This document shows positions 11,423 to 15,007 of a stretch of DNA of 24,398 nucleotides, one piece after another. The translations under genes and the position numbers were made by a program. Within the stretch, counting starts at the first letter, position 1, and each line of letters starts with the position of its first letter. The stretch is from a virus: IMG/VR virus record IMGVR_UViG_3300028925_011554, positions 1 through 24,398 of that record; one strand, 5' to 3'. Below the pieces are notes generated by a model that saw only the letters and a program-made list of their open reading frames with translations, was not told where the DNA came from and did no database searches.

Positions 11423-12724
11423 TTAAATTTGAACTACTTTACCAAACAGTTCGGCCTTAGAACCGTAGCTTCCGCAACTTGGTGCCCTGCCAGTTGTAAC
11501 CCATAGCACTGAATATCCCGGCTTCCTATCTCGGACACTGCCGTAGCCATCCGTGAAGTAGACGAGGCCACCGACATCTTCATTATTCTTTTCTATGTAA
11601 TCGAATATCGGATCGAAGGATGTTCCTCCCCCTCCGTAGATATCTAGCTCCATGGCATCTGCCCCTCCTCCATTCTTCAGATCCATGTCATACCAAGGCT
11701 CATCCGTTTCTGGATTTGTGTGTATCGAACTGTCTACATAGGCCACCCGGATCTTGGTTAGCCCCAGTTCTTTGGCCCACCTCACTAGATTCTTCCGGCA
11801 TTTTTCAAAATCATCTCGGCCCATAGATGCTGATGAATCAATGCAAGCATAGAGTGTGTGCGGAGTTTTTATCTTGCTTGGTAAATATATTTTTTTGTGC
11901 AAGAACCGTCTGTTCGGACGCTTGTAACTGCGGACATGAGAGAAGTTCTTCTTCAGGAAATGTCGGATGTGTTCTGACGATGTAGTCTTGCCAGTTGATG
12001 TGAAAATCTTATCAAACATCCCGCCCTTGCCTTGACCTATCTGTCTCTCAAGCATGGCGGCTTCCGCCACACGTTCATTAATATCTTTTTCTTCTTCTTC
12101 CATCGCGGCCTTGGCTTCTTCGGAGTCTCCCTCGAAACGCTCGGGAACTAGAATCTCACCGCATCCATTGTTAGTGGGCTCACCTTGTCCTGCGCCACCG
12201 CCCCCTCCACTACCACCCTGCTTGGGCTTGGGCTTCCATCCTTTCTTTAGCATGTCGTTGCATATCTTTTCGACAGGCCATCCGCATGTGGAGTAGTAGT
12301 CGTGCCATAAAAGATCATCCGGTAATGTAAAGTCTATACCGTAGTTCGGGCTGTTCTTTATGGCACCGTTGATGGAATAGTCAGCAGCGATATTCCACAA
12401 TTCACAGGCGTCATCCTTGGAAAGAAGACAACGTTCCATCCATTTGGCGAGACGTATGTGATGCTTCTGCCCGATGTGAACAGATTCGTGGATTAAAATT
12501 CCACGGGTGTTGAGATCATTTGTGGAATCCGCGTAGGATAGATTGACCAGAACGTCTTTTCCATCAGTAGCGAATGTTGCGATCTTGTCACTTACTACGA
12601 TGGGCAAGAAGCCCATTAGTGAATGTGTCCCCGGCGCAACTCCGAACAGCTTGGCTCGCTGTTTCTTAACACGCCGGATGACGCGCTCCTCATCAGTGAG
12701 TTGCTTGGATTGATTTCCGTACAT
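11423..12724 (-). CDS. VWA-domain protein with HExxH metallopeptidase-like N-terminus (DUF2201-type)
   Basis: A 433-residue protein. ATG 12724 follows GGAGGAGAT; an earlier in-frame ATG adds 12 Cys-rich residues without a good site. Residues 75-90 contain HESVH (79-83), an HExxH zinc motif, and a conserved WNIAADYSINGAI stretch follows. A Gly-rich linker (near 175-190) separates it from a VWA-like domain whose metal site is DSSAS (near 296-300), GGGTSF and YFTDGYG. These are the two halves of DUF2201-type proteins. VWA proteins of this type work with MoxR ATPases in protein remodelling or metal insertion. The ATPase gene lies upstream on the same strand, separated only by the DUF3150-like gene. 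Peptidase activity is not demonstrated. Confidence 0.85.
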   Translation of the reverse strand: MYGNQSKQLTDEERVIRRVKKQRAKLFGVAPGTHSLMGFLPIVVSDKIATFATDGKDVLVNLSYADSTNDLNTRGILIHESVHIGQKHHIRLAKWMERCLLSKDDACELWNIAADYSINGAIKNSPNYGIDFTLPDDLLWHDYYSTCGWPVEKICNDMLKKGWKPKPKQGGSGGGGGAGQGEPTNNGCGEILVPERFEGDSEEAKAAMEEEEKDINERVAEAAMLERQIGQGKGGMFDKIFTSTGKTTSSEHIRHFLKKNFSHVRSYKRPNRRFLHKKIYLPSKIKTPHTLYACIDSSASMGRDDFEKCRKNLVRWAKELGLTKIRVAYVDSSIHTNPETDEPWYDMDLKNGGGADAMELDIYGGGGTSFDPIFDYIEKNNEDVGGLVYFTDGYGSVRDRKPGYSVLWVTTGRAPSCGSYGSKAELFGKVVQI

Positions 12725-12804
12725 ATCTCCTCCCCTTTTTGTGTACCAGCACCTGCACAATACCTAAGTTAATTTTATTAATAGGGCTGCCTGGCGCGTC
12801 ACGG

Positions 12805-13788
12805 CTAGTTACCCATGAAGTCATCGAACCTGTCTGTTGCGGGTGCGGCTGTCGTCGTGATGTCAGTCAACTTGTCTCTGATATTCTTTCGCTCGGTGTC
12901 ATCCTCACCTGACAGTGCCGACCTCGCCGCACCAAGATCACCACCACCCAGATCTTTTATATCTTTCATCAGATCTCTGATCTTATCAGCGGCATCAGTT
13001 AGGTCCTCGTCATCCAGTGCTTGACGCCACCCATCAATCTTATCTGCCAGATCTTCTAATTTATTCCATCCCTTTTCGTATGGCAGGGTATTCTTTCTGT
13101 TGTCTCCCTCAACGTGGACGTATTCATCAATGCGTTTCACGATAGCATTCGCCTCATCCATAACGCTATCTGCCATACCGCCAATAACGTTCGCTATCTT
13201 CTGGGCTTGCTCACGCTTGGCTCCCTCCACGCATCTGTCTATGACTTCTGACGGAGCCTTGAGCCTAATGTCATCACCGATATTAGCTTCATCTACGAGA
13301 GGCTTGATCCAAGTGTCCCAACTGAATCTCTTTCGTAGATCCTCAACGGGTATGAAGAACTCTTGGAACCTGCCGTTCAATTGCGTCAACGCCTCGACTC
13401 TAAACAAATCCCACTGGGAAAATAAATTACGTTCCAGCAGGCGTTCCCATTCCATCCTATAACCGGACATTCTTTCTTCGTACTCAACCAGTTTGTCTGG
13501 AGCGAGAAGGTATTCATTGCCGCTAACACGACCGCCGTTCTCGTTGTTCCGCGAGGTAGTCCACGGAACAGTCACGCTTTTCATGTAGCCCCTAGCTTGA
13601 GCTACAGGAGCCTTGATCGCTCGTACTATCGCCTCATCAAAGATGGCCACCTGACCCTTGGCCCTGCGTGGATCTATCCCCGTGGCATCTGCCCCGGCAT
13701 CCGATAATTCCTTGCATCTTTTAAGGTAGCCGTACTGGCTAACGCTAATACCAGTGATCAGAAAGTTTTCATAAAGCTTCTTGTTCAT
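12805..13788 (-). CDS. DUF3150-like middle component of MoxR-VWA cassette
   Basis: A 327-residue protein, largely helical. It starts with a short segment (LITGISVSQYGYLKRCKELS) and then a mixed region with YLLAPDKLVEYEERM and FFIPVEDLRKRF. The C-terminal third is a set of charged helices with many D, K, R and E, and ends in a Thr/Ala-rich tail. Its length, composition and place between a MoxR ATPase and a DUF2201/VWA protein fit DUF3150, a family repeatedly seen in phages and mobile elements beside this pair. It contains no catalytic motif, so it is likely a scaffold or substrate adaptor. A GAGGGGGCACC run precedes the ATG. Confidence 0.65.
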   Translation of the reverse strand: MNKKLYENFLITGISVSQYGYLKRCKELSDAGADATGIDPRRAKGQVAIFDEAIVRAIKAPVAQARGYMKSVTVPWTTSRNNENGGRVSGNEYLLAPDKLVEYEERMSGYRMEWERLLERNLFSQWDLFRVEALTQLNGRFQEFFIPVEDLRKRFSWDTWIKPLVDEANIGDDIRLKAPSEVIDRCVEGAKREQAQKIANVIGGMADSVMDEANAIVKRIDEYVHVEGDNRKNTLPYEKGWNKLEDLADKIDGWRQALDDEDLTDAADKIRDLMKDIKDLGGGDLGAARSALSGEDDTERKNIRDKLTDITTTAAPATDRFDDFMGN

Positions 13789-13807
13789 GGTGCCCCCTCC
13801 TCTTGGG

Positions 13808-15007
13808 TTAGAAATAAAAGTCTTGGTTGTGGGCGTAATGCCTTACGAATTCAGTCTCTGTTTTAATGTCCTTGTTGAGTGCGAGTGCTGCACTAACGCA
13901 TGCAACTGAAGCCTCCTGATCAATTCTATTTACAAACTTAATTATATTATTGATCTGACTTGCGCCCCCAAGGCTGTGATAGGTGCTACGCTTTTTATCT
14001 AAACGCGCCACTAGCATGCAAATAATACTGCACAACATCACCCTTCCATTGGTACTCGTATCGTTCCTGAGGGTATCTATCTTGTCACTATACTTGTCGG
14101 GATCCTTGAGCATCTCAGTAAGATCTCCAAACTTTTTTCCCGCATTGTGTACTGCGAACAATTCAGCAGTGCCTCGGTATCCAAGGATCCCTAGCATCAT
14201 GGCCTCAGATACAGGAGAGTCCATGTCCAAGCCCGCATTTAATAAATTACTGGCTTGGAAAACTGTGGCCGGGGTGCAGAAAGGTTTGCCACTAGCCTCG
14301 TCATCCTGTGTAAAGAGGAACTGATCGCCTACGTATTTGACAACCGTTTCCACCGAAGCATGCAGTTGACCCTTGTGGTGTTTCAAGAATCCTTCGGCGG
14401 TAGCTCGCACCTCTAGACTACACGCTCTCCTGACTAGATCGCTGTGCATAGAGAACGCCCCCGCCCCATCTTCCGCATTGTTGGTGGTGCCAATGAAGTA
14501 GACGTTGGGTGGCACCTCGTAGTTCGTGCCCAAGGTTCTCTCATTGAAAAGCTCCGACCAGATCTTAAAATTCTCTGGCTTTTTGCCCATCTCTTCAGCG
14601 ATGACGGTGCATCGGATGTCCTTCCGGTCCATGCCCTGCGTCCAACTTGCATCTGCTCCGGGCAGTGCAGTCGTGACGTACCTATCGTAGGTATGATCCC
14701 CGATAGCTGGCATCGCGAAATCTTCTGGGTCGTATCCGGTAGCATTGAAGATCTGCATACCGTACTCACCGACCCCTGGCCTACCGCCGGAGTTGCAGTT
14801 CACGATTGGCATGGGCTCGCCATCGTTGTGACGGCGAGAGATTTCTACTACCGCTTTCTTAGCGGCGTAAGTCTTGCCATGCCCCGGTGGCCCCTTGAGG
14901 ATCGTCGGGTAGCCCTCTTTTTCTAGCTGGACTACGGCCTCCGGTACTTCGTTAGGCTCTATGAATTGCCTAAGGTGATACTCCGTCTCTCTACTCTTGC
15001 TCGCCAT
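13808..15007 (-). CDS. MoxR-type AAA+ ATPase
   Basis: A 399-residue ATPase. Walker A GPPGHGKT is at 39-46. The Walker B position reads VIAEE (E138, E139), with Glu where MoxR proteins usually have Asp. The following helix ends in FNERTL, sensor 1 is GTTNN (173-177), and arginine finger candidates are R193-R194 in DLVRRA. The C-terminal 190 residues are a helical lid and an unassigned domain. MoxR ATPases act as hexameric chaperones with VWA partners such as in RavA-ViaA, NorQ-NorD and CbbQ-CbbO. Both expected partners follow in the same operon. GAGGAT precedes the ATG, and a copy of the phage palindrome lies 25 bp upstream. Confidence 0.88.
   Translation of the reverse strand: MASKSRETEYHLRQFIEPNEVPEAVVQLEKEGYPTILKGPPGHGKTYAAKKAVVEISRRHNDGEPMPIVNCNSGGRPGVGEYGMQIFNATGYDPEDFAMPAIGDHTYDRYVTTALPGADASWTQGMDRKDIRCTVIAEEMGKKPENFKIWSELFNERTLGTNYEVPPNVYFIGTTNNAEDGAGAFSMHSDLVRRACSLEVRATAEGFLKHHKGQLHASVETVVKYVGDQFLFTQDDEASGKPFCTPATVFQASNLLNAGLDMDSPVSEAMMLGILGYRGTAELFAVHNAGKKFGDLTEMLKDPDKYSDKIDTLRNDTSTNGRVMLCSIICMLVARLDKKRSTYHSLGGASQINNIIKFVNRIDQEASVACVSAALALNKDIKTETEFVRHYAHNQDFYF

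Follow-up and report, generated by a model that had tools for sequence, protein, structure and literature searches.

Two groups of bacteriophages are known to pair a MoxR-like ATPase with a protein that carries a von Willebrand factor A (VWA) domain. In N4-like phages these are gp24 (the ATPase) and gp25 (the vWFA-domain protein), two middle genes that PMC4193335 counts among 14 core genes without assigned function. In jumbo phages a MoxR/metallopeptidase-VWA pair has been described and a role in virion assembly proposed (Iyer 2021, PMC7824862). Here we analyze a related locus in a 24,398-nucleotide stretch of viral DNA (IMG/VR record IMGVR_UViG_3300028925_011554; hereafter the window), where positions 11423–15007 of the minus strand encode, in order, an ATPase, a helical middle protein, and a metallopeptidase-VWA protein. 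An earlier sequence-only reading had presented this trio as a phage-encoded cassette. The trio is indeed present in this phage, but the pair within it was already known from N4 and the jumbo phages. What is new, judging by sequence comparison, is that the exact order ATPase, DUF3150, metallopeptidase/VWA is common to the phage, conjugative plasmids, and Burkholderiaceae genomes. Our leading but tentative reading is that the trio forms one ATP-driven remodeling or processing machine of a mobile-element type, which would serve the DNA phase of infection and not the building of particles.

The three genes form a unit. They are adjacent on the minus strand in the order that the sequence-only reading had given, with operon-like gaps: 19 bp separate the ATPase and middle genes, and 80 bp separate the middle gene from the VWA gene if the latter starts, as is probable, at 12724. 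Three related contigs, G001, G002, and G003 (the last all but identical to the window), keep this order, as do 38 of the 42 loci from plasmids, genomes, and viruses described below. Against relatives, each of the three genes has a ratio of nonsynonymous to synonymous substitution rates (dN/dS) of 0.08–0.20, and all three are under purifying selection.

The ATPase (399 amino acids (aa); 13808–15007, minus strand) is a divergent MoxR-like AAA+ protein of the N4 gp24 family. Its match to PHROG 1297 (E = 8.6e-27) spans residues 16–393, that is, its whole length, and supports the MoxR-like assignment; orthologues in G001 and G002 are 79–82% identical. The Walker A motif is GPPGHGKT (residues 39–46; 14870–14893). 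The acidic pair of Walker B, within VIAEE, is Glu138-Glu139 (14591–14596), as had been noted from the sequence, and is kept across the window clade. N4-type and other phages have Asp-Glu at this site and four Burkholderiales plasmid ATPases have Asp-Asp, so that among the aligned ATPases Glu-Glu occurs in the window clade alone; the glutamate at the catalytic position is retained and the aspartate replaced. Because the Burkholderiales relatives vary too, Asp-Glu is not strictly defining for PHROG 1297 ATPases. In both the ATPase and VWA trees the window clade is far diverged and sits on long stem branches, and a tblastn search of cultured phages with the window ATPase gave no match. One row of the ATPase alignment, from Thermus phage phiFa (L036), proved to be a wrong open frame. 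It was excluded from the tree and retained in the ATPase profile, which served the searches of the Pag-Yong1 group, the 604 sequences, and the 42 loci reported below.

The metallopeptidase-VWA protein (433 aa from its ATG; 11423–12724, minus strand) belongs to the N4 gp25 family. It passes the Pfam cut-offs for DUF2201_N (E = 1.1e-17; 65.1 against 23.2 bits) and DUF2201 (E = 1.1e-10; 42.1 against 26.4 bits), matches PHROG 1314 at E = 2.4e-53, and carries the zinc-site motif HESVH (HExxH-x4-H; 12476–12490), all in agreement with the sequence-only reading of a DUF2201/VWA protein. The VWA domain contains a metal ion-dependent adhesion site (MIDAS) with the DxSxS motif (DSSAS; 11825–11839) and further MIDAS positions, a threonine in GGGGTS and an aspartate in FTD. 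All 20 of the phage and plasmid homologues that we aligned retain the zinc-site and MIDAS residues, and from the window through N4 to the plasmid relatives the alignment conserves HExxH-x4-H, WNxxxDxxIN, DxSxS, GGT, and the last MIDAS aspartate. Translation probably starts at the ATG at 12724, behind GGGGAGGAGAT, rather than at an upstream TTG, since a stop breaks the longer reading in G002. PHROG 1314 is labelled "HNH endonuclease", a name that appears on many phage records and obscures a metallopeptidase-VWA system; those members that we examined prove to be metallopeptidase-VWA proteins with DUF2201. RefSeq phage records repeat the misnomer, N4 gp25 being one example.

The middle protein (327 aa; 12805–13788, minus strand) is, by comparison through an intermediate family, a distant relative of DUF3150 that falls outside Pfam's own membership threshold. 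The earlier label "DUF3150-like" failed in direct tests: the protein matches no Pfam family convincingly, neither hmmscan nor a profile search linked it to Pfam DUF3150 (PF11348), and direct comparisons by hhalign and by hmmsearch with shuffles were not significant. The label stood when approached through cyanophage Pag-Yong1, whose ATPase and VWA genes have the gene for a 290-aa protein between them; in the twin phage MinM2 the counterpart carries a DUF3150 annotation. Plasmid homologues of the 290-aa protein, roughly 28–37% identical among the best, were aligned as an intermediate family, A4. In an hmmsearch --max of 604 sequences, 200 shuffles among them, the A4 profile ranked the window-clade middle proteins 1–4 (E = 1.8e-6 to 3e-4), with the next sequence at 0.28. 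Hhalign connected the window-clade proteins to A4 (P = 1.1e-4) and A4 to canonical DUF3150 (probability 92%, E = 6.7e-7), and one A4 member matches PF11348 at 1.1e-4. It is this two-step link, from the window clade to A4 and from A4 to DUF3150, that places the middle protein. Like DUF3150 proteins, it is also encoded between genes for a MoxR/CobS-like ATPase and a VWA protein.

Scans with the middle protein itself matched only window-clade contigs among the viral contigs and gave no match in the bacterial genomes or, by tblastn, in cultured phages; a DUF3150 pattern search of viral contigs also returned none. The genome scan with A4 begins with a pass of lower sensitivity than hmmsearch --max and failed to recover the middle protein of the window itself; its negatives for other phages are therefore weak. 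The full-text literature searched contained no mention of DUF3150. We also considered the vWA-MoxR-VMAP ternary conflict system (PMC7159879) and set it aside: Pfam matched no VMAP-type family in the middle protein, and the third component here is DUF3150-related instead.

How far does the pair extend among phages? A tblastn search with the VWA protein retrieved 61 phage records, mostly N4-like (Schitoviridae), and reached Thermus phage phiFa, Roseobacter phage CRP-7, and Bacillus phage G as well; each of the 17 phage records that we searched for the PHROG 1297 ATPase had it. In N4-type and other pair-carrying phages no DUF3150-type gene was recognizable, by profiles that can miss divergent members, and the third gene thus seems dispensable to the module. 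The window shares with N4 the families PHROG 1297 and 1314 and identical zinc-site and MIDAS residues. It differs in having a recognizable DUF3150 relative, in its Walker B pair (Asp-Glu in N4), and in the very long branch of its clade; its TerL relatives place the window phage, unlike N4, outside the Schitoviridae. A term search of CRISPRi-ART (PMC11879866) found no N4 data. Cyanophages Pag-Yong1, MinM2, and Pra-JY27 have all three families in matching relative order and in a similar replication/recombination neighborhood, which in Pag-Yong1 includes an annotated essential-recombination-function protein and a Cas4-type exonuclease. In these cyanophages, however, small genes lie between the three, and the proteins are far diverged from those of the window.

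The trio also occurs on plasmids. Those of Rhodovastum, Cupriavidus, Caballeronia, and Burkholderia carry adjacent genes for the ATPase, a DUF3150-type protein, and a DUF2201-type VWA protein with HExxH, in exactly the order of the window; these cassettes differ in lying on plasmids or other bacterial replicons and, in the Burkholderiales set, in their Asp-Asp Walker B. The Simplicispira ATPase gene lies 3.6 kb from the other two. A scan of bacterial genomes yielded 36 further loci. Altogether, 38 of the 42 loci that carry the intermediate DUF3150 family have all three genes in the same order on one strand, counting one with broken frames (L107) and two whose ATPase lies kilobases away (L071 and L102). 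The remaining four run into the end of a contig, encode a shorter middle protein, or, in Desulfobacter, show the middle gene only. Most of the 42 come from Caballeronia and Paraburkholderia, both of the family Burkholderiaceae, and the counts are not independent. Upstream of the ATPase, plasmids of Cupriavidus, Caballeronia, and Burkholderia each encode a protein of ~505–520 aa without a family assignment (L072:3030–4589, L073:3077–4594, L074:2239–3759), which is a possible fourth component.

Conjugative plasmids commonly carry a parallel set, composed of a CobS-like ATPase, a canonical DUF3150 protein, and a CobT-like VWA protein. A DUF3150 query matched 1118 plasmid records; the matches listed are annotated DUF3150, three of them confirmed with Pfam. 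On IncC and related plasmids (L057, L059, L060, and L062) the set lies beside ssb, bet/recT, and lambda-exonuclease genes, and this parallel subfamily of the trio sits on IncC-type resistance plasmids. HExxH and MIDAS occur together in five of six CobT-like or VWA proteins from the parallel sets, and the joining of a peptidase-like site to a VWA domain therefore recurs with the trio. The IncC-type set resembles the window in combining an ATPase, a true DUF3150 protein, and an HExxH+VWA protein near a recombination module, but its ATPase and VWA proteins are of other subfamilies and its ATPase gene is split off by ssb-bet-exo. These CobS-like and CobT-like proteins are what would speak for metal insertion or enzyme activation, in which the trio would activate a metalloenzyme as do CobS/CobT, NorQ/NorD, and CbbQ/CbbO. 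We regard this role as very unlikely. The genes next to the trio include no recognized metalloenzyme or cofactor gene, the CobS match from the plasmids scores 92 bits against an equivalog cut-off of 559, and the window VWA protein is DUF2201, not CobT.

The setting of the trio in the phage genome bears on a second role. By TerL, the relatives of the window phage are Pelagibacter phages HTVC027P and HTVC023P, DSL-LC04, 023Pt_psg01, and cyanophage Pag-Yong1 with its twins. The G001 contig (L045–L047; 58,320 bp) is probably complete, as it has a 127-bp end repeat. Its trio lies in a minus-strand block with palindromes, while the plus strand carries the virion genes, among them those for portal, GroES, and head. 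The trio block, on the minus strand and with operators, is near genes for a Sak annealing protein, a PD-(D/E)XK exonuclease, RusA, and a primase-helicase; no DNA polymerase was recognized among the G001 proteins scanned. In the same contig the gene for the GroES homologue adjoins those for portal and head, and a protein of 2626 aa has no assigned role.

Virion assembly or maturation, in which the machine would remodel or cut structural proteins, has been proposed for the jumbo-phage pair (PMC7824862) and for an archaeal virus tail system. Phages of this group do encode chaperones, witness the GroES homologue in the G001 late block. Like the window, the jumbo-phage pair sets a MoxR-like ATPase beside a metallopeptidase-VWA fusion. 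The window trio differs from that pair in its added DUF3150 relative and in lying outside the virion block: in G001 (58.2 kb when closed) the trio and the virion genes stand apart, on opposite strands. Conjugative plasmids carry the trio and make no virions. Four sister phages (HTVC027P, DSL-LC04, HTVC023P, and 023Pt_psg01) lack both the ATPase and the VWA gene, which Pag-Yong1 has, yet their TerL is 54–57% identical to the window's, they have annotated GroES and head genes, and they build related heads. Mass-spectrometry-identified virion genes lie near gp24/gp25 homologues, and the passages of PMC4193335 that were read do not name those homologues as virion proteins. On the strength of the plasmid trios, the sister phages, and the position outside the virion block, we find a virion role quite improbable; it is now the least likely of the three that the sequence-only reading had offered, the others being host takeover and anti-defense. 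The plasmid sets also make a virion-only role unlikely for the gp24/gp25 relatives.

Within the DNA-phase reading that we favor, the class of mechanism, ATP-driven remodeling or processing, is likely. AAA+ proteins form rings, and VWA proteins dock through MIDAS sites. By analogy, the MoxR-like ATPase would form a ring and pull on a client, to which, or to the ring, the VWA protein would dock via its MIDAS site; the N-terminal HExxH zinc domain of the VWA protein would clip, or at least grip, the client, and the DUF3150-related helical protein would serve as the adaptor that selects it. The uncultured virus infects bacteria, and its trio combines a motor driven by ATP with a helical helper and a zinc-site protein, which together probably remodel or cut other proteins. 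The machine would act during replication, recombination, or template takeover, a phase favored because of the trio's neighbors and the middle-gene timing in N4; its target there is suggested by context. A more specific version is possible, and we hold it with some reserve: the trio may be a module exchangeable between phages and conjugative plasmids, in which a zinc protease coupled to MIDAS receives, at the cost of ATP, a specific client chosen by the DUF3150 protein; in this way the module would control how the element replicates or recombines its DNA, or else disarm some factor of the host. Such a function, if true, would be one that no known MoxR-VWA system has. Finding relatives of N4 gp24/gp25 in a three-part set with a DUF3150 relative, shared with conjugative plasmids, provides testable partners.

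Anti-defense or host takeover would turn the same machine against a host protein, for example one that acts in restriction or immunity or one that competes in replication, which it would dismantle or cleave. Phages and conjugative plasmids, which share the trio, face the same host defenses; the trio lies in an operator-controlled block; and the long stem branches of the window clade fit past rapid change. We nonetheless think this role rather unlikely. The pair is core in N4-like phages (PMC4193335), whereas anti-defense genes are typically accessory, and dN/dS within the clade is low. PADLOC gave no convincing match, a weak argument given that its library covers defense proteins. PADLOC and NCBIfam scans of the window trio produced no informative match, and PDB searches nothing useful.

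Several observations weigh against a DNA-phase machine. The ATPase falls below the Pfam cut-offs for AAA (15.7 against 21.2 bits) and AAA_5 (14.3 against 22 bits), which is why we file it under PHROG 1297 and call it only MoxR-like, and its Glu-Glu Walker B could alter ATP hydrolysis. Nor is HExxH proof of peptidase activity in the VWA protein. AlphaFold predicted the structures of the middle and VWA proteins poorly (mean predicted local distance difference test scores of 47 and 41), and Foldseek gave no match at E ≤ 0.001. Two Burkholderiaceae plasmid trios adjoin type IV secretion genes, not recombination genes, so the link to recombination is not universal. Finally, deletions of several genes, which may or may not include trio genes, in the homologous bet/exo block of SXT are reported to reduce transfer by at most 10-fold (PMC2791158).

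Regulation of the locus is suggested by an operator-like palindrome, GGGGAAACTTTCCCC, at 15033–15047, ~25 bp ahead of the ATPase start. The window holds 10 near-copies, against 0.14 matches expected in shuffles, of the 15-bp palindromes GGGGAAWNWTTCCCC, at 8389, 15033, 15885, 17069, 17233, 17602, 17626, 17780, 18327, and 18421. The palindromes recur in G001 and G002, where a copy inside the primase-helicase gene is also kept, and the copy ahead of the ATPase is present in G001, G002, and G003. Sequence conservation and copy number thus back the operator that had been proposed ahead of the ATPase: the palindrome is likely an operator, and the copies are probably sites of a phage regulator. Some copies double as terminator-like hairpins, which is why we call the operator role no more than likely. 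The layout and the operators together suggest an early-type operon. Downstream, 32 bp past the VWA gene, a DUF7249 gene (11028–11390, minus strand; Pfam E = 1.5e-9) is probably co-transcribed with the trio. Elsewhere, the window has two separate terminase-small-subunit-like genes (3503–4495, minus strand; 17844–18281, plus strand), and one of the two proteins may be a DNA-binding regulator.

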